From assembly GCA_023667045.1 (NCBI GenBank), contig JAMPAU010000002.1, positions 124,001 to 188,000 of the forward strand: 64,000 nt of DNA. The letters run 5' to 3'. The translations under genes and the position numbers were made by a program. The first letter of the stretch is position 1. Each line of letters starts with the position of its first letter. The DNA comes from Ruminococcus flavefaciens (GTDB taxonomy: Bacteria > Bacillota > Clostridia > Oscillospirales > Ruminococcaceae). The notes beneath the pieces are model-generated. The model worked only from the letters and a program-made list of their open reading frames with translations. It was not told where the DNA came from and did no database searches. Shown in pieces: positions 13,709 through 48,788 of the stretch.

Positions 13709-13737
13709 TTGACAAAACTGAATCTATGTGATATACT
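13709..13737 (+). promoter_or_regulatory. Promoter of CRISPR mini-array A
   Basis: TTGACA at 13709-13714, 17 bases, TATACT at 13732-13737. The first repeat begins 31 bases after the -10. The short leader carries GGGTC twice. Confidence 0.85.
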
Positions 13738-13768
13738 ATATTAAAAGGGTCTTTATGGGTCTATTTTC

Positions 13769-13857
13769 TTTTTCCCCGCACATGCGGGGGTGACCCTCAA
13801 GCGGAGATTCTTCACCGTACTATGCTTAATTTTTCCCCGCACACGCGGGGGTGACCC
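13769..13857 (+). CRISPR. CRISPR mini-array A: two repeats, one spacer
   Basis: Two 28-base repeats (13769-13796 and 13830-13857) flank one 33-base unit at 13797-13829, giving a 61-base period as in type I-E. The repeat has five T, then the palindrome CCCCGCACACGCGGGG, then GTGACCC; the first copy has ATG for ACG in the loop. It closely resembles the S. thermophilus type I-E repeat. Bases 13803-13832 match 14085-14114 inside the next gene with one mismatch. No cas gene is near. The array lies in the 5' untranslated region of the 13876 gene, ending 18 bases before its ATG. Confidence 0.85.
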
Positions 13858-13875
13858 ACGAAGAGGAGAAGATAC

Positions 13876-14235
13876 ATGAAAAACTATGCTGAAATTCGCT
13901 TTGAGAACCAACCACTTGCCGAGATACTGCATATATGCGAGTACGGCAAGTACAACCTCAAGCTCGATACGGTAGAGCCTGCCAAGTCCCCAAAAAATGC
14001 TGAAGACGTTCTGAGTATGATTTTTGCCCTGCTTGAAAAAAACCCCGATACTCCGGAGGGGCGTGTGTATATGGGCAATTGTATGGAGATTCTTCACCGT
14101 ACCATGCTTAATTTGTCTGAGGTGATAAATGGCTTCAGAGCTGTTGAAGTCATAATCACCACTTCAAAAGAAGACGAGGGCGGAAACATCATCGAGACAA
14201 AGGCAGTAACAAATATCACTATATCCGAATCATAA
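13876..14235 (+). CDS. Unknown protein, 119 aa, downstream of mini-array A
   Basis: Soluble protein starting MKNYAEIRFENQPLAEILHI, no signal peptide or membrane segment, a predicted alpha-rich middle (EDVLSMIFALLEK, MEILHRTMLNLSEVI) and a beta-rich tail (VEVIITTSKED, VTNITISES). I do not recognise the family. AGAGGAG lies nine bases before the ATG. It is the only gene after array A and is followed by its own terminator. Its codons at 14085-14114 are the sequence matched by the array A spacer. It may be of mobile origin. Confidence 0.75.
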   Translation: MKNYAEIRFENQPLAEILHICEYGKYNLKLDTVEPAKSPKNAEDVLSMIFALLEKNPDTPEGRVYMGNCMEILHRTMLNLSEVINGFRAVEVIITTSKEDEGGNIIETKAVTNITISES

Positions 14236-14240
14236 TAAAA

Positions 14241-14270
14241 AAGGGACAGTTAAAAAAAGCTGTCCTTTTT
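14241..14270 (+). terminator. Terminator of the 119-aa gene
   Basis: AAGG-GACAG paired with CTGTCCTT around a T/A-rich loop, followed by TTTTT. It closes the mini-array A transcript. Confidence 0.75.
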
Positions 14271-14285
14271 CTGTGAGGTGAATAA

Positions 14286-15122
14286 ATGAAAAAAATTATC
14301 CTGTGCCTTGCTTTTCTGTCGCTTACAGCTTGTGGTAATAAAAATGAAGTCTCTGTAAATCCTCTGGGGAGCGTAAACCATGAGATAACGTCTTCTTATA
14401 CGACCGCAACAACAGTTACGGAAACAACTACAACTACAGCAACCACTACCGCTCCGGCAAAGAAAACCCAGCGTAACACTAAAAAGAAAGTGCTGATAGA
14501 CGTTCCGTACTATTCACAGAAAGACTACCCCACCGGCTGTGAACTTGTCAGCACCTCTATGCTCCTTGCCTTTTACGGCTTTGATATAAGTGCAGGAGAC
14601 CTCATCAGCGACGGCTACATAAAGGCTGTTGATGTGACAGAAAAAGGCAAAGACAAAACAAGATACGGCGGTGACCCGAATAAAGTATTTGTGGGAAATC
14701 CCGAAAAAAATACTGGCTATGGCTGTCATAGTGGTGCTGTTATTCTTGCTCTGAAAAAATACCTCTCTCCGCAGGAGCATAAGCTTGACAGAAAATACGA
14801 GATTACCGACCTCAGCGGTATGGAGCTTGATGAAATCTGTGCCGAATATATCGACAATGAAATACCTGTGCTTGTATGGGCAAGCATAAATATGAAACCG
14901 ACCTTTTATAAGCTCGCTAATAGTTGGATTATTGAGAATACAGGTGAGCATTATCTGTGGAAATCAAATGAGCATTGCCTTGTGCTTGTCGGCTATGATG
15001 AGGAAAACTATTACTTTAATGACCCGCTTGTGAAAAAGAATACCACCTACATAAAACCGCTCGTTGAGAGAAGATACGGCGAAATGGGTATGCAGGCGGT
15101 AGCTGTAACTGAAATCAATTGA
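14286..15122 (+). CDS. C39-like cysteine peptidase lipoprotein
   Basis: 278 aa. A lipoprotein signal peptide ends in LSLTAC (Cys 16), followed by a threonine-rich linker (about 35-60) and a peptidase_C39_2-type domain. The catalytic Cys lies in PTGCELVSTSML (about 84), the His in SNEHCLVLVGYD (about 233) and the Asp in NYYFNDPL. The domain anchors outside the membrane. The Thr linker is typical of Ruminococcus surface proteins. Substrate unknown. It has its own GTGAGGTG ribosome site and follows the terminator of the previous gene. Confidence 0.85.
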   Translation: MKKIILCLAFLSLTACGNKNEVSVNPLGSVNHEITSSYTTATTVTETTTTTATTTAPAKKTQRNTKKKVLIDVPYYSQKDYPTGCELVSTSMLLAFYGFDISAGDLISDGYIKAVDVTEKGKDKTRYGGDPNKVFVGNPEKNTGYGCHSGAVILALKKYLSPQEHKLDRKYEITDLSGMELDEICAEYIDNEIPVLVWASINMKPTFYKLANSWIIENTGEHYLWKSNEHCLVLVGYDEENYYFNDPLVKKNTTYIKPLVERRYGEMGMQAVAVTEIN

Positions 15123-15713
15123 TAATCAAGAATGCAGAATTATTTTAATTAAGAATTATTCGGGCGTGAAATAGCCAAACGCTACAATAAAAAGAGAAGT
15201 AATGGCAATACTTTATATTCTGGAATTTTACTTTTGATAAGTACTTGATTTTATTTTTCAGTGCAGGTTTTTAGCTATTATAAATTCCTTTTGTAGAAAA
15301 CTAAAAAACTGTATAGGTTTTATAAAATGGCTGAAACTTGCACTTTCAATTTGAAAAAACAACGATTTTTCCCAAAATACAGCCGAATATCAGCAGTGCA
15401 AGTTTATAATTGACCTGCACTTGAAAGGAGCGATGACATGAAAAATAATAATAAATCACTCTGCCGGATTGACATGTACCATTATATGCTTTATATCGGG
15501 AAACTCTTTTTCGGCTTAGAGATGTCAAAAAGATATACAAAAAAAGAAAATACATTGTAGTGATTTTTATATTGAAATTTCACTTGATTTGAACGTGATA
15601 TAATCTTTATTTTGCCTGATATATAGCCAAAAATAGTGGTGGGCATAAATCTTTATCCCTCACCCGAAAGGAGCGATTGCATGAAAATAATTAATAATTA
15701 AAATAATTATGCA
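15123..15713. other. 590-base intergenic region with two related leader-like units
   Basis: AT-rich. Two similar units end in AAAGGAGCGAT and an ATG: 15370-15440 (ATACAGCC box, then an AGTGCA/TGCACT hairpin) and 15610-15683 (ATATAGCC box, then a GGTG-GG/CCC-CACC type hairpin). Hairpin sequences differ but the layout is shared. The first leads into a 40-codon frame, the second into only MKIINN. I see no other gene here. Confidence 0.45.
15438..15560 (+). CDS. Possible small protein, 40 aa
   Basis: ATG at 15438 is eight bases after AAAGGAG. The frame reads MKNNNKSLCRIDMYHYMLYI and continues to TAG at 15558, basic with a short hydrophobic centre. No family recognised. The ribosome site is excellent, and a six-base hairpin stem lies just upstream. 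It could also be the decayed start of a longer gene, because a similar leader at 15661-15683 leads only to a six-codon frame. Confidence 0.4.
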   Translation: MKNNNKSLCRIDMYHYMLYIGKLFFGLEMSKRYTKKENTL

Positions 15714-16601
15714 TTATCCATTGCTGATGATACAGTCTCTTAGTTCGAGGTATTCGCCGTCGTTTATGGTTATTTCACTTGCTGATTGCGTGTAGTCGTC
15801 GTATGATGTAAGCTCTCCGGATTCTTTCAGCACAGCCCCGACTGCATTTATGCTTGAATACGTATACCACTCGGCATACTCTCCGTACTCGCCGTATGGC
15901 TCTAGGGTATACGTACCGGCAGGAATATCACGCCCTACAATAAACATACCGTCACTGCTGTACGGGTCATTGATTATTTCGGGGTGCATATCGAGATTGT
16001 AGGCGGTAGCCCATGAAAAGTCGAGGTAGCCGTTGCCGGATATTTCTGCTATGCGAGAGCCGTCGAAATGCACGTAAGCCGAAGAAATCTGATTTTCGCA
16101 TTCGGGGTCTGCATATACGCCCTCAACGCCGTGACCGTCTGCCATATCCGGAATGAATACGTACAGCCCCTCTGGAATGTCAACGCCTATCTGATACGTA
16201 CCGGAGGGAAAAACGCCGTTTTCGCTGAAAGCCTCATTTGCCGAGTATACAGGCATTGCCTCTTCAATATCGTAGTAGTCGTGGTGGTCATAGTGGTCAT
16301 AATCATCATAGCCGTCATGGTATTCAACGGCATAGTCAGCCGGAGAGTATATATAGCCCCCTCTGTTGCGGTTGGCTGACACAGCCATAGCCGTAATACT
16401 CACTGCAAAGAAAACCGCACTACCTGCCAGTACCGCACGGAGTAGTTTCTTTCTGTTTTTTATTGCAGATAGTTTCATGGTAATCTTTGGTTTATTTTTA
16501 TATATTACTTTAGCCGGAGCGGGCTTTGTTCTTATCGGCATATCGCAGTATTCACATACCGTACCGGAAACGACAGCTCCGCAGTGTTCGCATACTGTCA
16601 T
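15714..16601 (-). CDS. Zinc-ribbon membrane-anchored protein
   Basis: 295 aa. An N-terminal zinc ribbon (CEHCGAVVSGTVCEYC, residues 4-19), a basic stretch, one membrane segment (about 54-74), then a Tyr/His/Asp-rich linker (about 92-112) and two beta-rich segments with similar wording (FPSGTYQIGVDIPEGLYVF and FIVGRDIPAGTYTLEP). The topology is ribbon inside, C-terminal domain outside. Function unknown. A monocistronic leftward gene divergent from array B. Confidence 0.8.
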   Translation of the reverse strand: MTVCEHCGAVVSGTVCEYCDMPIRTKPAPAKVIYKNKPKITMKLSAIKNRKKLLRAVLAGSAVFFAVSITAMAVSANRNRGGYIYSPADYAVEYHDGYDDYDHYDHHDYYDIEEAMPVYSANEAFSENGVFPSGTYQIGVDIPEGLYVFIPDMADGHGVEGVYADPECENQISSAYVHFDGSRIAEISGNGYLDFSWATAYNLDMHPEIINDPYSSDGMFIVGRDIPAGTYTLEPYGEYGEYAEWYTYSSINAVGAVLKESGELTSYDDYTQSASEITINDGEYLELRDCIISNG

Positions 16602-16686
16602 ATAGAATCACCTCTTTTTCTTTATTATACCACTGAATGAAGGAGTAATCAAGAGTATTTTTCTTAAAAAAATCTTAATGCCACTC

Positions 16687-16715
16687 TTGACAAAAAGAGT
16701 TCTATATGCTATAAT
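16687..16715 (+). promoter_or_regulatory. Promoter of CRISPR mini-array B
   Basis: TTGACA at 16687-16692, 17 bases, TATAAT at 16710-16715. The first repeat starts 25 bases later. Unlike A and C, the leader has no GGGTC boxes. Confidence 0.85.
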
Positions 16716-16740
16716 AATAAAAACGCATAAGACAAATCTT

Positions 16741-16829
16741 TTTTTCCCTGCACACGCAGGGGTGAACCTGGCAAAAGGTGAAATTTGCGGAAAAGGTATG
16801 CCTTTTCCCCGCATACGCAGGGCTGACCC
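16741..16829 (+). CRISPR. CRISPR mini-array B: two diverged repeats, one spacer
   Basis: Repeats at 16741-16768 and 16802-16829 with a 33-base unit (16769-16801) between them, again a 61-base period. The first repeat has paired changes in the stem, CCCTGC/GCAGGG instead of CCCCGC/GCGGGG, so the hairpin is kept. The second repeat has GCATACGCAGGG and CTGACCC, a weaker stem. No gene follows on the plus strand before the rpmB terminator. The end of the spacer and the start of repeat 2 form a perfect GGAAAAGG/CCTTTTCC inverted repeat. Confidence 0.78.
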
Positions 16830-16881
16830 TTTTAGTTGGTCTGATTTGTTGCTTTATGCGTTTCTTTTTTATAACTAAACA

Positions 16882-16914
16882 TAAAAAAACAGGGTACTCT
16901 TGCGAGTACTCTGA
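16882..16914 (-). terminator. Terminator of rpmB
   Basis: Minus-strand stem CAGAGTACTC/GAGTACCCTG with one mismatch around GCAA, followed by TTTTTTT. Confidence 0.8.
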
Positions 16915-16935
16915 ATTTTTTCTGTAACGTTAAGT

Positions 16936-17121
16936 TCAAGCTCTCTCAACCTTACCCGAGCGTAAACAGCGTGAGCAAGCATAAACATGACAAGGAGTAC
17001 CCTTGACGATAGCCTTTACTTTCTTAACGTTCGGCTTCCATGTTCTGTTTGTACGTCTGTGTGAGTGAGATACCTTTATACCAAAAGATATACCCTTACC
17101 GCATATATCACATTTTGCCAT
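16936..17121 (-). CDS. rpmB: 50S ribosomal protein L28
   Basis: 61 aa, the normal size. MAKCDICGKGISFGIKVSHS and RRTNRTWKPNVKKVKA are typical, and the two CxxC pairs (CDIC, CSRC) mark the zinc-type variant. AGGAGGTG precedes the ATG at 17121. Single gene with its own terminator. Confidence 0.96.
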   Translation of the reverse strand: MAKCDICGKGISFGIKVSHSHRRTNRTWKPNVKKVKAIVKGTPCHVYACSRCLRSGKVERA

Positions 17122-17251
17122 TAGGATTGCACCTCCTTATCTGTTATAAAAAGTCAACATGATTATTGTAACACATCTTTCCGAAAAAATCAAGTCTTTT
17201 TTGAAAAAAAATGAAAAAAATTTTTTATTTCATTAAATTTGCTCAGATTAC

Positions 17252-17280
17252 TTGAAAAATATCCAATAATGTAGTATAAT
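17252..17280 (+). promoter_or_regulatory. Promoter of the M50-scpAB run
   Basis: TTGAAA at 17252, 17 bases, TATAAT at 17275-17280, 64 bases before the M50 protease start. Confidence 0.75.
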
Positions 17281-17344
17281 AAATAGTAATCATCTTTCCG
17301 GATTTTTCCGGAATGCGAAATTTTTTATTAAAGAAAGGAAAACT

Positions 17345-18034
17345 ATGGATATTAACTCAACGCTCAGAATTTTTTCAAGGCTGATAACACTTCTGCTTGT
17401 CATGCCTGTCCATGAGGCTGCTCACGCACTTGTCGCAAAGTGGCTCGGCGATGATACCGCTGAACGTCAAGGCAGAATAAGCCTCAATCCCTTTTCACAT
17501 CTCGACCTTATGGGTTCTATACTGATAGTCCTTACCGGATTCGGCTGGGCAAAGCCCGTACAGGTAAATCCCAACCGCATGAAGAATCCTCGTGGTGGAT
17601 ATGCACTCACTGCCCTTGCCGGACCTGTCTCAAACCTCATCGTTGCTTTTCTTTCGATACTTGTATGGGCTTGTCTGCTCTGCACAGAATCGGGTATGGT
17701 TTCTGCTCTTTCCGGCGAGACAACAGCCATGTCCAGCGTACTCACTCTTTTGCAGTTTCTTTTCAGCGTAAATATCGGTCTTGCAATGTTCAATCTGATT
17801 CCCGTTCCGCCACTCGACGGCTTCAACGTTCTGAGGTTCTTTCTCGGCGAAAAGGCAGACAGGTGGTTTTACGAACACCAACAGCAGATGCAGTTAGGCT
17901 TTCTCATTCTCATACTCGTTCTGAACTATATACCAGCACAGTACAATATTTTGAATATAGCCTGTGATTTTGTAAGCGGTAAAATGCTTGACCTCGTATG
18001 GAAGATACCAATGCACAAGTGGGGTTTTGCTTAA
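17345..18034 (+). CDS. Site-2 protease family (M50) membrane metalloprotease
   Basis: 229 aa, about five or six membrane segments. The zinc motif HEAAH lies in the first segment (about 23-27), and the second metal-binding region NLIPVPPLDGFNV is at about 145. No PDZ domain, so this is the small YwhC-like class. AAAGGAAAACT precedes the ATG. It is directly followed by scpA with no gap, an order common in Firmicutes. Substrate unknown. Confidence 0.9.
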   Translation: MDINSTLRIFSRLITLLLVMPVHEAAHALVAKWLGDDTAERQGRISLNPFSHLDLMGSILIVLTGFGWAKPVQVNPNRMKNPRGGYALTALAGPVSNLIVAFLSILVWACLLCTESGMVSALSGETTAMSSVLTLLQFLFSVNIGLAMFNLIPVPPLDGFNVLRFFLGEKADRWFYEHQQQMQLGFLILILVLNYIPAQYNILNIACDFVSGKMLDLVWKIPMHKWGFA

Positions 18035-18784
18035 ATGGAAAAAATTTCTTTCCATATCGAAGGCTTTGAAGGTCCTCTGGACGTTCTTCTCACTCTGATA
18101 AACCGCCATAAGCTCGATATATTCGATATTGAAATATCTGAACTGCTAAAGCAGTATCTTGCCTTTATGGAAGACTGCCGTGAAAATAACCTCGAATTAG
18201 CAGGAGAGTTTCTTGAAATGGCTTCACGTCTGATATATATAAAGACAGCTTCTTTACTGCCACAGCCGGAAGTAGCAGAGGAAATGAAAAAGGAACTGCA
18301 AGGCTCTCTGATTGAGTATTCCCTTTGCAAGACCGCTACAGCCGAACTCTCCAGAAGATACACAGGCGATATTTTCGTGCGTACTCCCATGAAAATCAAG
18401 GCTGATACGACGTACAGGCTTGTACACAGTCCGGAGCGTCTGGCTGAGACTTATCAGATAATTTCCGGCAGAAAAATCATAACGGAAAAACAGGAAAACA
18501 AAATAGAAAATAAAATAAATTCTGTCGTGAAAAGGCGTATAGTTTCCGTCATGAGTAAAGTAGTACACATACTCCGAGAGCTTTATTCCGGCGGAGAAGT
18601 CCCCATGAATAAGCTGTATGACGGCATAACCGACAGGTCGGCAAGAGTGGCTACTTTCCTTGCCGTGCTTGAACTTACACGCTCCGGCAGAATAATGATA
18701 AGCGATGACAACTCTAAAATCTTTATGAAACAAAGAAAGGAAGTCGGTAAAACTTGGAAATCAAGGAAAAACTCGGCACAATAG
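18035..18784 (+). CDS. scpA: Segregation and condensation protein A
   Basis: 249-aa kleisin of the SMC-ScpAB condensin. The N-terminal FEGPLDVLLTLINRHKLDIFDIEI signature and the C-terminal winged helix (VATFLAVLELTRSGRI) are clear. It starts one base after the M50 gene stop and overlaps scpB by about 30 bases, so the three genes form one translation-coupled operon. Confidence 0.95.
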   Translation: MEKISFHIEGFEGPLDVLLTLINRHKLDIFDIEISELLKQYLAFMEDCRENNLELAGEFLEMASRLIYIKTASLLPQPEVAEEMKKELQGSLIEYSLCKTATAELSRRYTGDIFVRTPMKIKADTTYRLVHSPERLAETYQIISGRKIITEKQENKIENKINSVVKRRIVSVMSKVVHILRELYSGGEVPMNKLYDGITDRSARVATFLAVLELTRSGRIMISDDNSKIFMKQRKEVGKTWKSRKNSAQ

Positions 18785-19284
18785 AGGCTATACTTTTTGC
18801 AAGCGGTGACCCCATTGAAATGTACCGTCTTTCAGAGGCAAGCGGTGTGGATATAGGCACTCTGCCGTCTATGATAAAGGCTCTCAACGAGCGTTACGAC
18901 GAATCCGGAAGCGGTATATGCATAAAAAAACTCGAAAGCAGTTACCAGATGTGTACCCGTGAGGAGTTCGCTCCGGCTGTCCGTAAGGCTCTCGAAACAA
19001 AACGCAGTACGCCTCTTTCAAATGCAGGCATGGAAGCACTCACTATAATAGCCTATAACCAGCCTGTTTCAAAGAGCTTTGTTGAAAAGGTTCGTGGGGT
19101 GGATAGTTCTTCAGTGATAAATAATCTTGTCGAAAAGGGTCTTGTCGAGGAAGCAGGACGGCTTGATGTGGTCGGCAAGCCTGTTGTTTACCGGACTACC
19201 GCCGTATTCCTTAGAACTTTCGGTCTAAGTTCGATTTCTGACTTGCCCGCACTGGTAGGTCAGACCTCAATAAATGAAGAATGA
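18754..19284 (+). CDS. scpB: Segregation and condensation protein B
   Basis: 176-aa partner of ScpA, two winged-helix domains. IEAILFASGDPIEM near the start and EALTIIAYNQPVSKSFVEKVRGV in the second domain are the family marks. The start is a TTG at 18754 inside scpA, with AAAGGAAG upstream. The next gene begins 20 bases after its stop. Confidence 0.95.
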   Translation: MEIKEKLGTIEAILFASGDPIEMYRLSEASGVDIGTLPSMIKALNERYDESGSGICIKKLESSYQMCTREEFAPAVRKALETKRSTPLSNAGMEALTIIAYNQPVSKSFVEKVRGVDSSSVINNLVEKGLVEEAGRLDVVGKPVVYRTTAVFLRTFGLSSISDLPALVGQTSINEE

Positions 19285-19303
19285 TTAAGGGGGACGGCAG
19301 GTT

Positions 19304-20173
19304 TTGATTGTATTAAAAATTTTATTATGCGTACTTCTTGCCGTTCTCGGTATTGTCATGGCGGTGGTTATTCTTGCTCTTGCACTTCCGGCAGCGGCAG
19401 AAGTAAGCTTTATAGACGGCAAACTTAAATACAAGGTTAAGTTTTCTTTTCTTTCGCTTATTGATTCCGACGGAAAAGGTCTTCTGAAAAGAAAAAAGAA
19501 AAGCAAAAAATCCAATAAGAAAAGCGAAATGGCAGAGCAGGAAACTTCCTTTGACTTTGAAGATTATAACGATGATGATATTTTTCCGGAAGATGATATT
19601 GACGATACAGACATTGACATAGATATTGATATTGAACAGGAAACTATTACTGATGAACTTCCCAAAGAAACCGACGAGGACGACGAAGACAGAGTGCGCT
19701 CTGAAAAGATTAAAAAAATCAAGGAAAAGAAATCACGTTCCGCAGAAGAAACTCAGCAGTCAGATGAAAGCAAACCGGATACTCCCTCAGAAAGCAAAAT
19801 AGAAAAACTGCTGAATATATGGGATATAGCTGGTCGTCCTCTGCTGAAAATTTTCAAGGGTTTTCATGTGAAAAACGTTTTTGTTGACTTTATCGTTGCC
19901 GACGAGGACGCTTATAAATGTGCCATAAATTACGGAATAGTCAGCGGTGCTGTATACAATATACTTGCATGGCTCGGCGAGTTGTTTACCGTCAGCTATA
20001 AGACTGTTGACGTGCAGTGCGGTTTTTCGCTGAAAAAATCCCAGTGGAATGTCTCATGCAAAGTGACTTTCCGGCTCTATACTCTGGTCGTTTCGGGACT
20101 TTGGTTTCTGATGACATATATTTTCAAAATACTTCTGCCGAAAAAATTTAAAGGCAGAAAATCCAAAAAGTGA
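19304..20173 (+). CDS. DUF2953 membrane protein with acidic linker
   Basis: 289 aa. An N-terminal membrane segment (about 4-28), a highly charged Lys-rich then Asp/Glu-rich middle (about 60-165, including repeated DID residues), then the DUF2953 part (VKNVFVDFIVADEDAYKCAINYGIVSGAVYN) and a C-terminal hydrophobic segment. It comes immediately before the ytfJ-like gene, the usual neighbour in spore-forming Firmicutes. The TTG start has GGCAGG upstream, so the start is less certain than the frame. Confidence 0.85.
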   Translation: MIVLKILLCVLLAVLGIVMAVVILALALPAAAEVSFIDGKLKYKVKFSFLSLIDSDGKGLLKRKKKSKKSNKKSEMAEQETSFDFEDYNDDDIFPEDDIDDTDIDIDIDIEQETITDELPKETDEDDEDRVRSEKIKKIKEKKSRSAEETQQSDESKPDTPSESKIEKLLNIWDIAGRPLLKIFKGFHVKNVFVDFIVADEDAYKCAINYGIVSGAVYNILAWLGELFTVSYKTVDVQCGFSLKKSQWNVSCKVTFRLYTLVVSGLWFLMTYIFKILLPKKFKGRKSKK

Positions 20174-20184
20174 GGTTATTTATT

Positions 20185-20598
20185 ATGGAAAAAGGCAAAA
20201 CTCCGGTAAGCGAGATTTTAGGAATTTCAATGGAAAAAGTAAAGGAAATGGCTGATGTTAACTCTGTTATCGGCGAACCGATAAAGCTTGACGACGGCAC
20301 AACTATTATCCCGATTTCAAAAGTTTCATACGGCTTTGCCTCCGGCGGTTCTGATTTGCCGTCAAAGTATGAGAAGAATCTTTTCGGTGGCGGAGCAGGT
20401 GCAGGCATTTCAATAAAGCCGGAGGGTTTTCTTGTAATATCTCCCGACGGTACAGCTAAAATGGTATCTGTCAGCTCCGGCGACGACCCGATAAGCAACG
20501 CTATAAACGCTATCCCGAATGTCATAAATAAAGTTTCTGATTTCGTGGGAAAAAAGAAAAAAAATGACGACAGTGCGGAAGTTGTCCTCAATGACTGA
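20185..20598 (+). CDS. ytfJ: Sporulation protein YtfJ (GerW family)
   Basis: 137 aa, spore-associated protein linked to germination in Bacillus. VIGEPIKLDDGTTIIPISKVSYGFASGG and NLFGGGAGAGISIKPEGFLVI are family hallmarks. The ATG at 20185 follows GTGAGG; a GTG five codons upstream is part of that site. It follows the DUF2953 gene by 11 bases. Confidence 0.92.
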   Translation: MEKGKTPVSEILGISMEKVKEMADVNSVIGEPIKLDDGTTIIPISKVSYGFASGGSDLPSKYEKNLFGGGAGAGISIKPEGFLVISPDGTAKMVSVSSGDDPISNAINAIPNVINKVSDFVGKKKKNDDSAEVVLND

Positions 20599-20674
20599 TT
20601 AATCCGGAATACTCACCGCTAAATCTGCATATCATATATGTATAATATTATGGACTTGTTCCGGAGGTATGCAG

Positions 20675-40832: not shown

Positions 40833-40861
40833 TTGACAAACCACACAACCTGTGCTATAAT
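40833..40861 (+). promoter_or_regulatory. tRNA-Trp promoter
   Basis: TTGACA at 40833, 17 bases, TATAAT at 40856-40861. Confidence 0.9.
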
Positions 40862-40902
40862 AATATACGTCGTGAGGGACATGACAGTGAAATAAAGGAA
40901 AT

Positions 40903-40978
40903 AGGGGTATAGCTCAGTTGGTAGAGCAGTGGTCTCCAAAACCACGTGCCGAGGGTTCAAGTCCTTCTGCCCCTGCCA
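40903..40978 (+). tRNA. tRNA-Trp (anticodon CCA), CCA encoded
   Basis: Acceptor AGGGGTA/TGCCCCT, D arm, anticodon stem GTGGT/ACCAC around CTCCAAA giving CCA, T arm and encoded CCA end. Confidence 0.96.
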
Positions 40979-40985
40979 GAAAAGA

Positions 40986-41009
40986 AAGTCCGAGTGTTCG
41001 GGCTTTTTT
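40986..41009 (+). terminator. Terminator of tRNA-Trp
   Basis: AGTCCGA paired with TTCGGGCT around GTG, followed by TTTTTT. Confidence 0.8.
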
Positions 41010-41046
41010 GTTTTTATAAATAAATATAAAGCTATGAGGTGAAAAT

Positions 41047-41220
41047 ATGGTAAGAGGTGAAATTTATCTGTACTGGATAACAAATCTTGACTGGTACGAT
41101 TATGACGAAAACGAAAAGCCTTATCTGACAGAAAAAGCACCGGAAAAAGCACGAGAATCTTTCAGAAAATACATTGAACTTAAAGAAAAGGAAAAAAGAA
41201 CCGGAGTAAGAATTATTTAA
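41047..41220 (+). CDS. Small hypothetical protein, 57 aa
   Basis: ATG at 41047 after GAGGTGA. The product starts MVRGEIYLYWITNLDWYDYD, with an aromatic N-terminal half and a Lys/Glu-rich helical C-terminus. No family recognised. It follows tRNA-Trp and its terminator, and ends before a bidirectional terminator, so it is probably a small stand-alone gene or depends on read-through. Confidence 0.6.
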   Translation: MVRGEIYLYWITNLDWYDYDENEKPYLTEKAPEKARESFRKYIELKEKEKRTGVRII

Positions 41221-41224
41221 AAAT

Positions 41225-41254
41225 AACCAGAGGGCTTGTATGTCCTCTGGTTTT
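41225..41254 (+). terminator. Bidirectional terminator
   Basis: AACCAGAGG (41225) pairs with CCTCTGGTT (41244), between the 57-aa gene and the convergent DUF624 gene. Confidence 0.85.
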
Positions 41255-41260
41255 GTTTGT

Positions 41261-42181
41261 TTATGAAATTCTTTTGCCTTTACCCTTTTTGCGTTTTTCG
41301 ATAGGTTTTTCCTTACCGCCCATATCCTCAAATACAGGTTTTTCTTCGGTCGGGGACTCGTTCATGAGTTCGGGGTTTATTTCGCCTATGCTTGTGTAGT
41401 AGGGGTTTATTACGAACTTCTGTATTACCGGATAGCTGTTGAAGCAAGTTATGAAACACAGAAAAGCCATAGGTGCAAAAGGTATAAGCATGAGGAAAAG
41501 CGGTCTCATATAGACATAGAGAAGAAACATTCCCACTATAGCTGTGGCATTTATGATAAAGGTTATCACATTCTGTTTCAGTGCCACAAAAGCCAATGCA
41601 AATGAATTTTTCACAAGGTTTATAAATGAAAGGTTGGTAGCGGTCATCATGAGGAAAATATAAAAGTTCATCATTGCGATTACTATAGCAAGGCTGAAAG
41701 TTATAACCATAGGAATATACATCAGATTAGTTTCTGCCTTTTCGGCAAGCACCGGATATACTATGAACGACGCATACACGGAAAGTATTATCACACAGTC
41801 CACGAATCCCACCAGACAGGCTTTTTTGAAATTCGCCTTGAATGCCTTGAAAAAGTCGTTTACTATAAAAGAGTGTTTTTCGAGTACAAATTTACGCATA
41901 ACCTTTGTCATGCCTGCTGTTGCCGGACCTATGCATACCACAAAAAGCACAAGCGAAAGTCCCGCACATATCAAGGAAACAGTATTATTTTTTATAAATG
42001 CAAGCGAGGCAAGCATAAGAAAAACAGGTATAAAAAAAACAAAGTACAGCATATTTACTTCTATGAGTTTCCAGAATTTCCGGAAAAAGATTTCAAAGAA
42101 AAGTCTTATGCCCTTTTTTTTCGGAGCGTTTTTTGCTATGCCTGAGCCTCTGCTTTCAAAGTCATTTGAAAATATCGCCAA
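41261..42181 (-). CDS. DUF624 (YesL-like) membrane protein
   Basis: 306 aa from a TTG start at 42181, chosen because CGGAGG lies ten bases upstream and the protein then begins MAIFSNDFESRGSG; a longer frame to 42355 would run deep into the upstream gene. About six membrane segments, starting after FFRKFWKLIEVNMLY, the usual DUF624 entry. A Lys-rich C-terminal tail. Function unknown; often near sugar transporters in other Firmicutes. Confidence 0.82.
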   Translation of the reverse strand: MAIFSNDFESRGSGIAKNAPKKKGIRLFFEIFFRKFWKLIEVNMLYFVFFIPVFLMLASLAFIKNNTVSLICAGLSLVLFVVCIGPATAGMTKVMRKFVLEKHSFIVNDFFKAFKANFKKACLVGFVDCVIILSVYASFIVYPVLAEKAETNLMYIPMVITFSLAIVIAMMNFYIFLMMTATNLSFINLVKNSFALAFVALKQNVITFIINATAIVGMFLLYVYMRPLFLMLIPFAPMAFLCFITCFNSYPVIQKFVINPYYTSIGEINPELMNESPTEEKPVFEDMGGKEKPIEKRKKGKGKRIS

Positions 42182-42218
42182 TTTTAAAAATCCTCCGTTT
42201 TTAGTTTTTTGAAAAAAA

Positions 42219-42803
42219 TCACCGCAGTCCCGAAAAAGCATAGTTGAGTACGGTTGCAAGGACTGCGATAACAAGCGAAACAGCAATAAGCACAAGAAAT
42301 TCAAGACAATACAGCTTGAAAGACTTGTCAGTGTGGTTAATATCTGAAACAACAAATCTTGAAACCGAGCGTGACATTCTTATCAGTTCACGGACGGCAA
42401 GTACAGATATTACGGTTACGGCTATGCATTCCGGAAGAATAAGCACAAGTACGGTTGGTATGCCGTGAAGCCCCTTTGAGAGATATTCAGAAGATACTGC
42501 CGTGCCTATGCCGAATCCACGATAAATGAGCATTATTATTCCGGCAGGTTGTCCGAAAGCTGAAAGTCCCATGACAAAAGCCGTCACGGTAAAAAGAAAA
42601 AGCGACATGAAAGTATTTCTGAATACTTCATATATAGTACTGCCGGAGCATTCGGGCAGTAAGTACTGGTGTACCCACGGGCTTGTAACAGTATGTCCGG
42701 TACTGTATATTGCTCCGATGAGTATTCCGGCGGTTATTACTGCAAACAACAGCAGAAATCCAGTACTGCTTTTTTTCGTTTCCGTCTGATTCAAATTCTT
42801 CAT
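42219..42803 (-). CDS. Stage II sporulation protein M family membrane protein
   Basis: 194 aa, five membrane segments. FRNTFMSLFLFTVTAFVMGLSAFGQPAGIIMLIYRGFGIG and LILPECIAVTVISVLAVREL fit the SpoIIM fold. In spore formers it recruits SpoIID and SpoIIP. It could be an ordinary SpoIIM-like membrane protein, since the fold is shared outside sporulation. Located upstream of the DUF624 gene on the same strand. Confidence 0.82.
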   Translation of the reverse strand: MKNLNQTETKKSSTGFLLLFAVITAGILIGAIYSTGHTVTSPWVHQYLLPECSGSTIYEVFRNTFMSLFLFTVTAFVMGLSAFGQPAGIIMLIYRGFGIGTAVSSEYLSKGLHGIPTVLVLILPECIAVTVISVLAVRELIRMSRSVSRFVVSDINHTDKSFKLYCLEFLVLIAVSLVIAVLATVLNYAFSGLR

Positions 42804-42861
42804 AAAGGCTCACCTTTCTTTTTATAAAAGGATATGCCAGTAACCGCAATATTAGAACGTC

Positions 42862-43659
42862 TTATTTTGAGAGTTCGTATGCTCTCTTTGTACAGCTTTC
42901 ACAGCAGTTGTCTACTATCTGGGTGAGATTGCCCTCATAGAGACGGTCGAGACCGGCAAGGGTAGTGCCACCCGGAGAAGATACCATTTTGATGAGTTCG
43001 TCAATGGTATAACCGGAATCAGTAATCATCTTTGCTGAACCGATAAGGCTCTGTGTGAAAAGCTCTGTTGCGGAATTTCTGTCAATGCCCACTCTGTCGG
43101 CATAGTCTATAAAGCCCTTTGCAAAGAGGTATATAAACGCCGGACTGCTACCGTTAAGGGCTATTATTTCTTTCATTTTGTCCTTTGAGATGACGGAAGC
43201 CTTACCGCAGAGACGGAAAATATTAAGGACTGTTTCAAACTCCTCATCTGTCACCATGTCGTTGTGGGAGAGAGCGGAAGCACCCTCGCCGATGAGCAGG
43301 GGAGTATTTGGCATTACGAGGATAACCTTAGCGTCGGGGCGTGTTTTTCCGGCTATGAACTCGTCGCCTATTCCGGCGGCTATGGAAATAAGAACTGTCT
43401 CGGCAGTAACGGCAGATGAGGCAGTTTCAAGCACTCCCTCAATAATCTGAGGTTTTACGGCAAGAAATACATATTTGCACTCTGAGATAAGTTCTGTTTC
43501 GCTTGCACAGTACTTTACGCCATACTCACCAAGAGAATCGACTTTTGAGCGGTCGGGGTCGAATGCGAAAAGTTCAGCCTCTACAGTAGACTTTGAAATT
43601 CCTTTCATGATAGCAGAACCCATATTGCCTGCACCTATGAATCCGATTTTGATACTCAT
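42862..43659 (-). CDS. proC: Pyrroline-5-carboxylate reductase
   Basis: 265 aa, last step of proline synthesis, NAD(P)H dependent. Rossmann motif GFIGAGNMGSAIMKG at 5, LAVKPQ at about 66, VMPNTPLLIGEGAS and the C-terminal MVSSPGGTTLAGLDRL signature. ATG at 43659 with AAAGGAG upstream. Confidence 0.96.
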   Translation of the reverse strand: MSIKIGFIGAGNMGSAIMKGISKSTVEAELFAFDPDRSKVDSLGEYGVKYCASETELISECKYVFLAVKPQIIEGVLETASSAVTAETVLISIAAGIGDEFIAGKTRPDAKVILVMPNTPLLIGEGASALSHNDMVTDEEFETVLNIFRLCGKASVISKDKMKEIIALNGSSPAFIYLFAKGFIDYADRVGIDRNSATELFTQSLIGSAKMITDSGYTIDELIKMVSSPGGTTLAGLDRLYEGNLTQIVDNCCESCTKRAYELSK

Positions 43660-43764
43660 GACTATAAAAAACTCCTTTGTAATAAAAGTTCCCGAAAAAA
43701 ACAGGATTTATAATATTATACTACACTATGCACAAAAAAGCAAGCATAATTTTGTGAAAAAAAC

Positions 43765-43793
43765 TTGAAAATAAAAACGTAATGTGTTATAAT
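43765..43793 (+). promoter_or_regulatory. Promoter of the 178-aa gene
   Basis: TTGAAA at 43765, 17 bases, TATAAT at 43788-43793. Confidence 0.75.
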
Positions 43794-43819
43794 AGTATAA
43801 CATGAAAAAGGAGAGAATT

Positions 43820-44356
43820 ATGGATTATTTAAATGACATTCAGATAGCCTTTGAAAGTATTCATGAATCTAAGCTTGACAGTATATTCAGTATAAGCGAC
43901 TGTATATGCGACCTGTACTGTGTGCCGTCCCATTATGACAGCTCATACTATGTGCGTGTATACAGAAAAGACAGTAAGTATACGGCGATATATGCACGCA
44001 CTGAAATAAATGATATTTTCGGACATAAAGTTTACTGTGATGCGTTTGAAAGTGCTTTGAGGGCAAGTAGACACTCCGCAAAACAGGGTAAAATAATATG
44101 CGGATATTTTAAACCGTCTGAAGATTTTATAGGTGAACTGAAATCTATGATTGAATTGTTTCCGGAGGAAGACTACATACTCAGTGAAAAGCATATAATC
44201 ATTGACGGCATATGGCAGGTTATACGGCTGTGGAAAAACGGCACTCCGCAATGTACCGTATCTTTTGAGAATATGTCTGCAAAAAGCATATTCAGAAAAG
44301 ACTTTGCGGAAACTGTCTGCAATATGTACGAATTTATTCAGAATCAACTGCAATGA
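43820..44356 (+). CDS. Unknown protein, 178 aa
   Basis: Soluble, starting MDYLNDIQIAFESIHESKLDSIF, mixed alpha/beta with several Tyr and Cys residues and no recognisable motif. The ATG at 43820 is six bases after AAAAAGGAG; the upstream ATG at 43802 overlaps that site. It has its own promoter and precedes glnN, which also has its own promoter. Confidence 0.7.
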   Translation: MDYLNDIQIAFESIHESKLDSIFSISDCICDLYCVPSHYDSSYYVRVYRKDSKYTAIYARTEINDIFGHKVYCDAFESALRASRHSAKQGKIICGYFKPSEDFIGELKSMIELFPEEDYILSEKHIIIDGIWQVIRLWKNGTPQCTVSFENMSAKSIFRKDFAETVCNMYEFIQNQLQ

Positions 44357-44362
44357 ATTTAC

Positions 44363-44390
44363 TTGACTATTCTGAAATTCATGATATAAT
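44363..44390 (+). promoter_or_regulatory. glnN promoter
   Basis: TTGACT at 44363, 16 bases, TATAAT at 44385-44390. An inverted GAATTT/AAATTC pair lies across it. Confidence 0.65.
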
Positions 44391-44429
44391 AATATAATAG
44401 AATTAAAGTTACATACAGGAGGATTTTTT

Positions 44430-46523
44430 ATGACCAAGAGTGTTCCAGAAATTTTTGCGGAAAATGTTTTCAGCGACGAGGTGATGAAATCCCGTCTCCC
44501 TAAAAACGTCTACAAAACGCTTATGAATACCATTCAGAACGGCAGACAGCTTGATATGACAACGGCTGATTTTGTCGCAAATACCATGAAAGAATGGGCT
44601 GTTGAAAAAGGTGCTACCCATTATACACACTGGTTTCAGCCACTCACCGGCTCGACCGCTGAAAAGCACGATTCCTTTATAACTCCTGCCTCAAAGGGTA
44701 CTGCTATTATGGAGTTTTCCGGTAAGGCTCTCGTTAAGGGCGAACCCGACGCTTCTTCTTTCCCCTCCGGAGGTCTCAGACAGACCAGCAGTGCAAGAGG
44801 CTACACCGCTTGGGACCCTACCTCTTACTGTTTCGTGAAAGAGGGCAGTCTTTACATACCTACTGTTTTTCTTTCATACACCGGTGAAACTCTTGACAAG
44901 AAAACACCCCTCCTGCGTTCTATGGACGCTCTCAGCAGTTCGGCTGTTAAGTTCTTAAAGCTTTTCGGCAACGAAAATGTAACACGTGTTACTTCTACCG
45001 TAGGTGCGGAGCAGGAATATTTCCTTATTGATAAGGATATGTATGACAAACGCAAGGACTTAATCCTTACTGGTAGAACTCTTTTCGGTGCAAAGCCACC
45101 AAAGGGACAGGAACTCGACGACCAGTATTTTGCTAATCTCCGTCCGAGAATTGCAGAATATATGGCAGACCTTGATGAAGAACTCTGGAAACTCGGTATC
45201 TACTCAAAGACCAAGCACAATGAGGTAGCTCCGGCACAGCACGAAATGGCACCTGTTTTTACCACTTCTAATCTTGGTGCAGACCAGAATGAGCTTGCTA
45301 TGGAAGTAATGGAAAAAGTCGCTCTCAGACATAATCTTGTGTGTCTCCTGCATGAAAAGCCATTCGAGGGGGTTAACGGTTCGGGCAAGCACAACAACTG
45401 GTCTATGGCTACCGACGACGGACAGAATCTTCTTGACCCCGGTGACACCCCTATGGAGAATCTCCAGTTTCTTACTATTCTCTGTGCCTTGATTAAGGGC
45501 ATTGACGAATATGCAGACCTTATGAGAATTTCCGCATCTTCTGCCGGAAACGACCATCGTCTTGGTGCAGATGAAGCCCCTCCTGCTATCGTGTCAATGT
45601 TTCTGGGCGAGGAACTCGACGCAGTTCTTAAAGCTATAGAAGAAGACAGCGTTTACAAGACACAGACCCGTGCTTTTGAAATAGGCGTTAACGCTCTGCC
45701 GTCTTTCCCGAAAGATTCAACCGACAGAAACAGAACCTCTCCTTTTGCCTTTACCGGTAATAGATTTGAGTTCCGTATGGTTGGTTCTTCCGATAATATC
45801 GCCTGCCCGAATGCACTTCTCAATACTATAGTAGCCGAAGAACTTAGCCAGTTTACTGAAATTCTTGAACCTTTCAGCAATACTGATAAATTTGAATCGG
45901 AAGTCAAGAAACTAATGAAAAACGTCCTCAAAGAACACAGGAGAGTTATTTTCAACGGCGACGGCTATTCTCTTGAATGGGTACAGGAAGCTGAACGCCG
46001 TGGACTGCCTAATTATCCGTCTACTGTGGACGCTCTGCCACACTATACCGACGAAAAAAATATGCGTATCTTTAAGAAGTTCGGCATATACACCGAAAAC
46101 GAACTTAAGGCTCGTACAGAGGTATTGCTTGAAACTTACTCGAAGACTTTACGCATAGAGGCAAGAACTATGATTCAAATGGCAAGGAAACAACTTCTTC
46201 CGGCTACTCTCGAATATATCCATAAGCTTTGCGATTCTATAGCCGTGAAACAGCAGATAGGTCTTTCGGGCAGTGTCGAGAAGAAAACAGCAGAAAAACT
46301 CAGCGACCTTGCCGAAGCTTTCTATGATTCTATCGAAAACCTTGAAGTGCAGGTTAATCAGGCGTGCGAGATAAAGGAAATCTTACCGCAGGCGAGATTC
46401 TTCCGTGAAAAAGTACTCTCCGAAATGGAACGTATGCGTACTACTTCCGATACTATCGAGAGAATTATGCCGAGCAGTCAGTGGCCTGTGCCGGATTACT
46501 CGGAAATGATTTACAATGTATAA
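44430..46523 (+). CDS. glnN: Type III glutamine synthetase
   Basis: 697 aa, the size of GSIII, found in Bacteroides, cyanobacteria and Ruminococcus. [21 protein letters not shown] and [25 protein letters not shown] are the GSIII-specific N-terminal motifs; [38 protein letters not shown] and [21 protein letters not shown] are catalytic. Incorporates ammonium into glutamate. AGGAGG precedes the ATG. No PII or other nitrogen regulator is nearby. Confidence 0.97.
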
Positions 46524-46589
46524 TTTTGAAAGGATATGTTAATTTACGAGCAATAAGAACAAAAAGCCGGCAAATACCCCTCCGAATCT

Positions 46590-47135
46590 GTGAAAAATAC
46601 ACAGAACAAAAAGAAGAAACGTCCAATAATTAAATACAGTGCGGACTATATAAGCTACGTTGAACACGGCGATTCTGCGGTAGTGTTTATCACTCGTGAT
46701 ATAGTAAACTCAATCAACACCAATGGCAAGTGGATAGATGTTCTGCATTCAGAAGGCGGAAAAGAGATTTTCACCGATGAGGGAGATGCAAGATACAGGT
46801 GCGATTTTGACTGGTTCATTGTTGAACTTTTTCCGAGAAATACAAAACCCGATTACTCAAAAGCATGGTCTGATGAGGATAAAAAGTATATCACATGGGC
46901 AACCGCAATCAAAGATATTGCAGAATGGCGAAAAGAAGGCTATGAAGGTCAGAAATTCAAGGTAAGGCTTAAGCTTGTAAACGAGAACAAAGGCAAAACC
47001 ATAATGGCGGAAAGGCTGTGGAATAAAAAGCGTGAAAGGTTTGTGCCGGAAAAATGCAGACTGTGTGTACACAAAAGTGAAAGTACCTGTAAATCCGAAC
47101 TGGCAGTATCATATCCTTTCTGTCGAGAGACTTGA
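46590..47135 (+). CDS. Unknown basic protein with Cys cluster
   Basis: 181 aa. Lys-rich N-terminus, then SADYISYVEHGDSAVVFITRDI, and a C-terminal four-Cys cluster CRLCVHKSESTCKSE...PFC that could bind zinc. The GTG start at 46590 has no clear ribosome site, so the start is uncertain. No family recognised. It follows glnN and ends at a bidirectional terminator. Confidence 0.6.
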   Translation: MKNTQNKKKKRPIIKYSADYISYVEHGDSAVVFITRDIVNSINTNGKWIDVLHSEGGKEIFTDEGDARYRCDFDWFIVELFPRNTKPDYSKAWSDEDKKYITWATAIKDIAEWRKEGYEGQKFKVRLKLVNENKGKTIMAERLWNKKRERFVPEKCRLCVHKSESTCKSELAVSYPFCRET

Positions 47136-47164
47136 CAATAAATAATCATGACAGATATTCTTTT

Positions 47165-47199
47165 AAGGTGACCTATAATTATTTATGGGTCACCTTTTT
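47165..47199 (+). terminator. Bidirectional terminator
   Basis: AAGGTGACC (47165) pairs with GGTCACCTT (47188), followed by TTTTT. Between convergent genes. Confidence 0.8.
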
Positions 47200-47237
47200 A
47201 GCCGATTGAAATATTATTATGCGAAATTTCTTAATTA

Positions 47238-47870
47238 TTAATCAGAAAGATATTCTTCTAAGGTGATATTCATTTCGTGAATTTCAAGAGCCGTGTCAGT
47301 GCCGACATATCGGTAGTGCCATGGCTCATAGCTTATTCCGGTTATGTCTTCCTTGCCGGACGGATAACGCAGTATAAAGCCGTATATGTGGGCGTTTTCG
47401 GCAAGCCAGTTATAAACTTCCTCGTCGGTAGACTGTGAAGTGTCAGCATTTATGTCAAGTGCAAGACCTGTCTCGTGTTCGCTTTTTCCGGCAACCGCTA
47501 CCCAGTTACGTGCGAGTTTTTTCGCCTCATGCCTTGAATATCCCTCATCTATGTAGCCTTCCACCTTGTCGGACATCATTTTCTGCTGTTCCTCATGGGT
47601 TCGGTAGCCCTCGCCGACAATCATATATATACCGTCTTTTTCAGCGTCGCTGGACATTCTCTGAAAGTCCGGATATATTCTTTCGTCAATGCGTATGCCG
47701 TTTGGTAGCTGTATAAGTTCGGGACTGTAGCCATGCGGTATTGAGTGGCTTTCATTCACGAGAATCAACCGCCAGTCGTTAGGGATTTTTTCCTGCTGAT
47801 TATATTTAAGCATGGACATTCCGGCAACTATAATAACTGCCGTGACAAGTAATCTGTTTTTTCTTTTCAT
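47238..47870 (-). CDS. D-alanyl-D-alanine carboxypeptidase, M15B (VanY type)
   Basis: 210 aa from the ATG at 47870, nine bases after AAAGGAG; a longer frame to 47981 has no ribosome site. One N-terminal membrane segment, then the M15B zinc peptidase: EGYRTHEEQQKM, SEHETGLALDI (zinc ligands His and Asp) and EPWHYRYVG (third ligand). It trims terminal D-Ala from cell-wall peptides. A VanY-like gene in the same window as a VanRS-like pair but 36 kb away, so linkage is not implied. Confidence 0.9.
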   Translation of the reverse strand: MKRKNRLLVTAVIIVAGMSMLKYNQQEKIPNDWRLILVNESHSIPHGYSPELIQLPNGIRIDERIYPDFQRMSSDAEKDGIYMIVGEGYRTHEEQQKMMSDKVEGYIDEGYSRHEAKKLARNWVAVAGKSEHETGLALDINADTSQSTDEEVYNWLAENAHIYGFILRYPSGKEDITGISYEPWHYRYVGTDTALEIHEMNITLEEYLSD

Positions 47871-48012
47871 TTTCAAAAGCTCCTTTCTGATTTTATATTC
47901 TATCATGCCGTCATTAAAAATCACTGAATGAAATTCATAATTTTTTCTTAAGTCCGGTATACGTACCGGATATTTTTCCATAGTTATCTGCCAAAGAAAT
48001 TGTGGTCGCCCC

Positions 48013-48041
48013 TTGACAAAGAAAAATTTTTATGATATAAT
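48013..48041 (+). promoter_or_regulatory. Promoter of CRISPR mini-array C
   Basis: TTGACA at 48013-48018, 17 bases, TATAAT at 48036-48041. The first repeat begins 34 bases on. The leader has GGGTC twice, as in array A. Confidence 0.88.
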
Positions 48042-48075
48042 ATTTCGGTAAGGGTCTTTTAATGGGTCTTTTTAG

Positions 48076-48164
48076 TATTTCCCCGCACACGCGGGGGTGA
48101 CCCTATTTTTCTGATATGTGGTATAATTATAACATAATTTTCCCCGCACACGCGGGGGTGACCC
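48076..48164 (+). CRISPR. CRISPR mini-array C: two repeats, one spacer
   Basis: Repeats at 48076-48103 and 48137-48164 with the 33-base unit 48104-48136 between them, period 61. Both cores are the exact CCCCGCACACGCGGGG palindrome plus GTGACCC; only the first five bases differ slightly. The AT-rich spacer includes TGTGGTATAAT. It ends 18 bases before the ATG at 48183, the same gap as in array A. Thus the array is the 5' untranslated region of the HD-domain gene. Confidence 0.88.
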
Positions 48165-48182
48165 TGTCTTTACAAAGGAGCG

Positions 48183-48788
48183 ATGATTACATTGACAGCA
48201 AAAGAAGAATTTATTTCGATTTATAAGGAAAATATTAGGCGTAAAGGTGCAGACAAACTTCTTGAATACCTCGAAAAAAGCGATTTTTTTACTGCTCCTA
48301 GCAGTACACGCTATCATGGCAGTTATGAGGGCGGTCTGGTTGAACACAGCGTTAACGTCTATCACTGTCTTAAGGATTACCTCTCACGTCCGAGAGTAAA
48401 AGAACTTTACGGCATGAATTACTCAGAGGAAACTATAGCTATAGTCGCTCTTCTGCACGACCTGTGCAAAGTTAATTTCTATACCATAGAAATGCGTAAC
48501 CGGAAAAACGAGGAGACAGGCAAGTGGGAAAAATACCCATACTATGCCATAAACGATACTCTGCCGTACGGTCACGGCGAAAAATCTGTTTACATAATTT
48601 CCGGCTTTTTATACGGCGACGACAGGCTCACCCGTGAGGAAGCTTTTGCTATTAGGTATCATATGGGCTTTTCCGGCGTTGAGGATAAAAACACTATAGG
48701 CAGAGCTCTAGAAATGTACCCCCTCGCCTGTGCTTTGAATGTTGCAGACATGGAAGCATCTTACTTTATGGAAGGCAGTATCAAATAA
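48183..48788 (+). CDS. HD-domain hydrolase downstream of mini-array C
   Basis: 201 aa. The HD site is GLVEHSVNVYHCL (about 50) and ALLHDLCKVNFY (about 88), with a later IRYHMGFSG histidine. This family of small HD proteins is common in Firmicutes genomes and phages; substrate unknown, a nucleotide is likely. The ATG at 48183 is only two bases after AAAGGAG; the TTG at 48192 would give better spacing and 198 aa. Followed by an amylase gene without a clear terminator between. Confidence 0.85.
   Translation: MITLTAKEEFISIYKENIRRKGADKLLEYLEKSDFFTAPSSTRYHGSYEGGLVEHSVNVYHCLKDYLSRPRVKELYGMNYSEETIAIVALLHDLCKVNFYTIEMRNRKNEETGKWEKYPYYAINDTLPYGHGEKSVYIISGFLYGDDRLTREEAFAIRYHMGFSGVEDKNTIGRALEMYPLACALNVADMEASYFMEGSIK

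Follow-up and report, generated by a model that had tools for sequence, protein, structure and literature searches.

In a 64,000-nucleotide stretch of the Ruminococcus flavefaciens genome (contig JAMPAU010000002.1, positions 124,001 to 188,000; hereafter the window), three short units of type I-E CRISPR (clustered regularly interspaced short palindromic repeats) character, each with two repeats and a single spacer, lie beside unrelated genes. Together with similar units elsewhere in this genome and in a related species, they offer ten testable spacers (nine from this genome, one from the relative), and eight of these (A, B, C, D1, E, F2, G and L064) match the locus adjacent to their own unit, with the target within ~400 bases. 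The genome encodes a full type I-E cas operon, and the targets in the carriers are changed. We give about even credence to the reading that the units are minimal CRISPR loci that use the host type I-E system in trans against array-less ancestral alleles of the neighbouring locus, a homing-like form of allele exclusion.

The units were collected by pattern searches of the genome (3.64 Mb in 112 contigs, the window being part of contig C35) and by inspection of the stretches around the matches. The initial annotation had reported three mini-arrays on the plus strand of the window, and all three pairs (A, 13769/13830; B, 16741/16802; C, 48076/48137) were present, with a 61-base period and one spacer each. 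Its proposal that CRISPR-derived units are deployed repeatedly before or beside unrelated genes was borne out, and the genome-wide search it called for raised the number of two-repeat units to 11: A, B and C in the window, and D1, D2, E, F1, F2, G, H and K elsewhere. Most units have a period of 61 and unit G one of 64, the spacers of F1 and K are shortened, D1 and D2 stand in tandem behind thiC, and E lies in a phage-like region. L064 is a two-repeat mini-array of the related species (genome G114). The repeats of A, B and C resemble those of the main arrays, with 0–3 mismatches in 26 positions. The genome holds 43 copies of a 16-base repeat core with at most one mismatch, compared with none of a reversed control pattern; therefore, the repeat family is not a product of chance. 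A family of hairpins arisen by chance or resembling miniature inverted-repeat transposable elements was ruled out by this control, by the likeness to main-array repeats and by the 61-base period of most units. The idea of a non-CRISPR family, for which a missing Cascade and a random period would speak, does not apply, because Cas6e, the remaining type I-E genes and the 61-base period were all found.

Spacers and the loci beside them

Each spacer was scanned without gaps against its matching loci alongside 128 controls (28 main-array spacers and 100 shuffles), and the best match of 33 was recorded. The relatives were other species, 13 of them picked as the closest; for unit C, 10 of 29 orthologs entered the control scan. 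Spacers A and B reached 27 and 26 in their own loci and 28 and 27 in those of relatives, and E and L064 each reached 29 in their own; no control attained any of these scores (0/128 in each case). In relatives, spacers C, D1 and G reached 28, 24 and 23, again with 0/128 controls each, and F2 reached 25 (2/128). The same spacers scored lower in the carrier: C 20 (52/128 controls), D1 21 (3/128), G 19 (49/128) and F2 18 (125/128). When the other mini-array spacers were used as cross controls, a score of 28 appeared in the relatives of B, which we take to be spacer A since gene A lies in those loci, a score of 29 in the relative sets of E and L064 reflected each other's locus, and a score of 24 in the D2 set came from D1. 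The differences between spacer and own target in A, B, E and L064 fall at third codon positions in 12 of 20 cases (p = 0.011). This result suggests that it was the gene, under protein constraint, that drifted, and not the spacer, which is a frozen copy.

Spacer A matches its own downstream gene, here called gene A. Relatives such as L070 have no array between metK and gene A, which are ~14 nt apart. Among 11 relatives (the gene after metK or an ortholog), glutamine follows asparagine in nine, and the second residue is alanine or threonine in nine. The carrier reads N-C-M-E-I-L-H-R-T, and C-M was found in none of the 11 relatives; the spacer reads Q-A. The asparagine codon occupies the position of a protospacer-adjacent motif (PAM) and is AAT in nine relatives and AAC in two; the carrier keeps AAT. 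Five of the first six protospacer bases are changed in the carrier versus one of the other 26 (p = 1.7e-4). Array B is convergent with the adjoining rpmB, and its relatives score like the carrier (27 or 28 of 34 at best versus 27), with AAT in 7/10.

At unit C, relatives carry the spacer segment right behind a -35 element of TTGAAT or TTGCAT. All 29 orthologs were scanned for the triplet before the match, which is AAT in seven of the 12 that could be aligned. The carrier promoter has been replaced, and the spacer is the native promoter segment in place. No other copy of this spacer above noise was found within 3 kb in the carrier; thus, the spacer itself is the sole copy, and repeat sequence occupies its PAM position. 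The annotation's distance of 18 bases between the second repeat and the first ATG held for A, while the identical 18 nt in C are probably a coincidence, because the start codon of relatives (ATG or TTG), which precedes a conserved GCAAAAGA, aligns with TTG 48192 and not with ATG 48183.

Other units show further forms of change. Spacer D1 corresponds to a segment in the 3' part of thiC, where the codon at the PAM position specifies lysine in relatives (AAG in 11/12, AAA in 1/12) and arginine (CGA) in the carrier. Spacer F2 has its closest resemblance in relatives, to the promoter region native to a glycosyl hydrolase 25 gene. In the carrier this region has been replaced and the protospacer cut short, and only the native-like start of the stretch is left upstream of the unit. 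Spacer G codes on its other strand for NDTADGSYDYLN, and orthologs of the adjacent transpeptidase gene hold a similar segment (NDTAGSSYDYLN in L161); the carrier transpeptidase lacks ~11–13 residues at this place through an in-frame deletion. The matches of F2 and G rest also on position, and that of G additionally on the peptide.

These changes bear on guide-directed regulation, the idea of the initial annotation that the units act like CreA/CreR guides, with a CRISPR RNA (crRNA)-like molecule bringing Cascade to repress the neighbour through partial complementarity. The ectopic repeats beside a gene fit this idea, as do the matches of B and L064 to start codons and of C and F2 to promoters, and B retains both the PAM and the first seven bases. 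However, such regulation needs a target that can be bound in the carrier, and in seven of eight units this target is absent or damaged: for C, F2 and G no carrier match outside the array rises above noise, A has lost its seed, D1 and L064 have lost a fitting PAM, and E has none. As carrier targets are missing or damaged, regulation of the neighbour is improbable, and we dropped it as the leading interpretation.

Spacer E matches a piece of a truncated downstream gene, with GCA, which does not fit, at the PAM position. Spacer L064 matches the opening codons of the gene downstream of its unit, where a GTG start yields AGT in place of the AAT that ATG would give. The surroundings of E are of phage type, with DnaC-like, O-like replication and Lar-like genes, and L064 lies beside an Arc-like repressor gene and a primase fragment. 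The units might thus be prophage-derived weapons against related phages, with the chromosomal ones as stray copies, and such behaviour is described for archaeal viruses (PMC6858448). This fits only E and L064, one in a phage-like region and the other among phage-like remnants; A, B, C, D1, F2 and G lie beside chromosomal genes and match the loci that they adjoin (at metK, rpmB, an HD-domain gene, thiC, the glycosyl hydrolase 25 gene and the transpeptidase gene), not phage genes. No such unit was found in IMG/VR with two patterns, and no viral relatives were found for the proteins at E and L064. We therefore set a phage-only origin aside, and conflict among mobile elements alone is a quite improbable account of the whole set.

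Host machinery and main arrays

No cas gene was found among the open reading frames examined in the window, where not every gene was annotated; the full operon lies elsewhere in the genome. Contig C45 carries cas3, cse1, cse2, cas7, cas5, cas6e, cas1 and cas2 with a DnaQ-like domain, a complete type I-E operon. The last of these encodes Cas2e fused to a DnaQ-like exonuclease domain (L016:1163-2032). A leader core is common to the three longer arrays, which lie on C24, C40 and C45 (3/3). This core is absent from all 12 mini units, so spacer uptake at a mini unit itself is doubtful; judged by their sequence, the mini-unit leaders hardly qualify as main-type leaders able to take up spacers.

The first spacer base is T at 25 of 31 main-array repeats, which fits a PAM ending in T. 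The 17-repeat array found only array-like records and weak matches (E value about 4) in INPHARED, and the PAM was consequently deduced from the alleles of the neighbouring loci and from the first base of the spacers. In this array (L009), spacers 1 and 4 are alike at 30/32 positions, as though two variants of a single target had supplied them. Record MT835722.1, labelled Bacteriophage sp., contains stretches similar to the whole of this type I-E array (13091-14040) and may be a bacterial contig.

Among 125 genomes of the genus, a strict repeat pattern was found in three (G000, G114 and G002, the last with a single repeat only); this pattern would overlook the repeats of G083 and perhaps further ones. 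Five of the 125 have Cas6e. A search of named genomes, which may omit the genome of the window, gave seven stretches, six of them long arrays of 12–42 repeats and the seventh (L023) the mini-array of G114. No repeat was found in 84 loci of relatives (362,010 bases).

The main rival to allele exclusion is autoimmunity followed by escape: spacers would have been taken by accident from nearby host DNA, self-targeting would have been harmful, and survivors would have changed the target, leaving arrays that are otherwise functionless. Spacer uptake is reportedly biased towards sequences near CRISPR loci, as work by Levy and colleagues from 2015 is said to show. The decayed units F1 and K and the single repeats at L062 and L063 suggest disuse, and mutation or deletion of the self-target is a known outcome of self-targeting (PMC8616872). 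However, the missing leader core speaks against uptake at the units, and the 28 main-array spacers have no match longer than 18 nt outside the arrays in 229,821 bases of own DNA. Moreover, a carrier should escape far more readily by dropping the spacer from between its repeats than by changing several bases in each of eight neighbours, and the spacer of C is native sequence in place. On balance, we regard autoimmunity as the less likely explanation. Even so, eight neighbour loci with a matched spacer and a changed target would form an unusual record of past self-targeting.

A proposed allele-exclusion mechanism

Under the allele-exclusion reading, a unit would consist of a strong promoter, a short leader, a repeat, one spacer and a second repeat, and would be transcribed and cut by Cas6e. 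The crRNA would load Cascade, and Cascade-Cas3 would attack only those copies of the locus that hold the ancestral sequence with an AAN-type PAM, each spacer representing the adjoining locus in its pre-array or ancestral form. The carrier would be safe because its own copy lacks the PAM, the seed or the whole protospacer. Array-less ancestral copies on a sister chromosome, on a recombined allele or on a related element would be open to attack. The array and the changed locus would then form a linked killer-and-immunity pair that locks its own allele in place.

If broken alleles were repaired from the carrier copy, the allele could spread like a homing element, and the short distance between unit and target is what co-conversion would need. 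We hold only tentatively the stronger version of this idea, a natural CRISPR homing or cleave-and-rescue system in which guide units use the host Cascade-Cas3 to destroy array-less alleles, and so lock in and spread the resistant allele. The units would then have multiplied to about ten loci in one lineage, decayed copies would mark the end of a cycle of gain and loss, and the units would act as a recombination barrier toward non-carriers. The suggestion of the initial annotation that the units are relics of dispersed arrays suits the decayed copies (F1, K and the single repeats) and fails for the general pattern.

Several points weigh against allele exclusion. The retained AAT and first seven spacer bases of B, followed by seven scattered mismatches further on, mean that its carrier may not be fully protected. 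The D1 match requires a 1-nt gap; AAT stands before the match in no more than 5/11 relatives for F2 and 2/7 for G; F2 is AT-rich, and two of 128 controls reach its score; another mini-array spacer equals the 23 of G in the G loci. Spacer D2 has no target in 13 relative loci or in its own flank (35 and 51 of 128 controls reach its score), and H has a weak match that 11/128 controls reach (best 16–20 of 27 in six relative stretches, which may not contain the H locus). The gene beside E and L064 has a relative in 7/125 genomes, of which only G000 and G114 are close, and none is informative about the ancestral allele. No strain of the same species with an empty allele was found, so that "ancestral" is judged from other species. 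The cas operon lies on a separate contig, 11 kb in length, and the assembly has 4.84% contamination. Finally, while the repeats, the cas operon, the spacer matches and the altered targets are shown, we infer that the units are transcribed, that their crRNA is processed and that targets are cleaved, as we do the PAM and allele exclusion or homing; spread by homing in particular is conjecture.

If the allele-exclusion reading is correct, bacteria hold guide-only elements that turn borrowed CRISPR machinery on the ancestral version of the locus they occupy. They would be a natural example of the logic known from gene drives built in the laboratory, and might help to explain why recombination between close strains meets barriers.

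Unit architecture and known systems

Positions of the window units and their targets are collected in Table 1. The annotated promoters (TTGACA-N17-TATAMT, placed 25–34 bases before the repeats) lie upstream of A, B and C much as described, with ~27–36 nt from the -10 element to the repeat. Predicted folds pair the GGGTC motifs of the leader with the repeat handles in A and C, and place closing stems in B, D1, D2, E, G, H and L064.

Table 1. Features of mini-arrays A, B and C in the window (numbered from its first base)
Feature	Position	Strand	Basis or remark
Array A promoter TTGACA-N17-TATACT, between metK stop and gene A	13709..13737	+	sequence
Array A short leader, two GGGTC motifs, predicted to pair with both repeat handles GACCC	13747..13761	+	sequence, predicted fold
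Array A repeat 1	13769..13796	+	1 mismatch/26 vs consensus
Array A spacer, codes QAEILHRTML like gene A orthologs	13797..13829	+	sequence comparison
Array A repeat 2	13830..13857	+	0 mismatches/26
Gene A, 119 aa, no Pfam family, 3' of metK, holds altered target	13876..14235	+	
Own target of spacer A: AAT still at PAM position; first five protospacer bases changed, then 26/27 identical	14077..14111	+	
Array B promoter TTGACA-N17-TATAAT	16687..16715	+	
Array B closing stem, left arm	16720..16738	+	predicted fold
Array B repeat 1	16741..16768	+	3 mismatches/26
Array B spacer, similar to first codons of rpmB	16769..16801	+	
Array B repeat 2	16802..16829	+	2 mismatches/26
Array B closing stem, right arm, then T run (terminator-like)	16843..16863	+	predicted fold
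Own target of spacer B, start of rpmB (16936-17121, L28)	17087..17121	-	fitting AAT and first 7 bases kept, then 7 mismatches
Array C promoter TTGACA-N17-TATAAT	48013..48041	+	
Array C repeat 1	48076..48103	+	0 mismatches/26
Array C spacer = native promoter (-10 region) of HD-domain gene as in relatives	48104..48137	+	
Array C repeat 2, cleanly between native promoter segment and native 5' untranslated region TGTCTTT	48138..48164	+	
HD-domain gene behind array C, start probably TTG 48192	48183..48788	+	

Further repeat copies were seen outside intact units. At L062:1232, a promoter and a leader of the mini-array type are followed by one repeat and a terminator-like hairpin, and the locus looks like a unit collapsed by recombination between its repeats. 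At L063:4783-4802, repeat-like hairpins lie in the 5' untranslated region of a QueD-like gene (named from sequence reading) with a strong promoter upstream; they are possibly a decayed unit or an unrelated hairpin. One repeat copy with 1 mismatch/26 (L024:6473-6498, genome C68:47472-47497) lies within the bacterial class A RNase P RNA gene (Rfam RF00010, 6325-6728). D1 and D2 (L011:7020-7480) resemble a tandem duplication of one unit with its terminator, yet their spacers differ. Upstream of metK, whose downstream gene carries array A, the window holds an S-adenosylmethionine riboswitch (RF00162) at 12349-12449.

In homing endonuclease genes and synthetic cleave-and-rescue drives, an element placed at or beside its cut site attacks the array-less or ancestral allele, whereas the allele of the carrier resists cutting. 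Similarly, for C, F2, G, A and D1 the site is destroyed in the carrier and present in non-carriers, these being relatives of other species. Unlike homing endonuclease genes and drives, the units are RNA-guided, bacterial and without a nuclease of their own, and their spread is a conjecture. Word searches of open-licence papers found no natural CRISPR drive and no chromosomal self-matching mini-arrays.

RNA anti-CRISPRs (Racrs), or solitary repeat units (PMC10651486), likewise have host-like repeats outside arrays, and the units here could be decoys that inhibit the host Cascade. The host-identical repeats, strong promoters, predicted RNA structures and single-repeat copies would suit such a role. 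However, Racrs are repeat mimics that need no spacer matching a neighbour, and the majority of units comprise two repeats with a spacer of full length, so we consider decoys very unlikely. CreTA/CreA (PMC9458426) shares the ectopic two-repeat unit beside a matched gene, the partial match and the use of Cascade in trans. In contrast, the CreA target, the creT promoter, is intact and the CreA repeats are degenerate, whereas here targets are mostly destroyed and repeats are near-identical to those of the main arrays. The neighbours of the units are protein genes. The delocalized homing crRNAs of CRISPR-associated transposons (CAST; PMC11656645) are also guides that lie outside the main array and match a site adjoining their element; the units had no visible transposase module next to them, and CAST lacks interference, whereas a full cas3 is present here.

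The nearest precedent is provided by the mini-arrays of the archaeal portogloboviruses SPV1 and SPV2, which have one or two spacers that match orthologous regions near the array; the virus's own locus is point-mutated or deleted, preventing self-targeting, and the authors call the reason for the proximity unclear (Medvedeva et al., 2019; PMC6858448). The shared features are a leader, host-like repeats, the lack of own cas genes, proximity and self-escape: a nearby orthologous match with the own copy mutated or deleted was likewise found for 8/10 spacers, in B by scattered mismatches only. The viral mini-arrays target related viruses, whereas the Ruminococcus units mostly stand beside bacterial chromosomal housekeeping genes and match genes or promoters; they are of type I-E, and their leader lacks the main-array core. 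If our reading holds, the units are a chromosomal counterpart of the viral mini-arrays and make it testable why the target adjoins the array.

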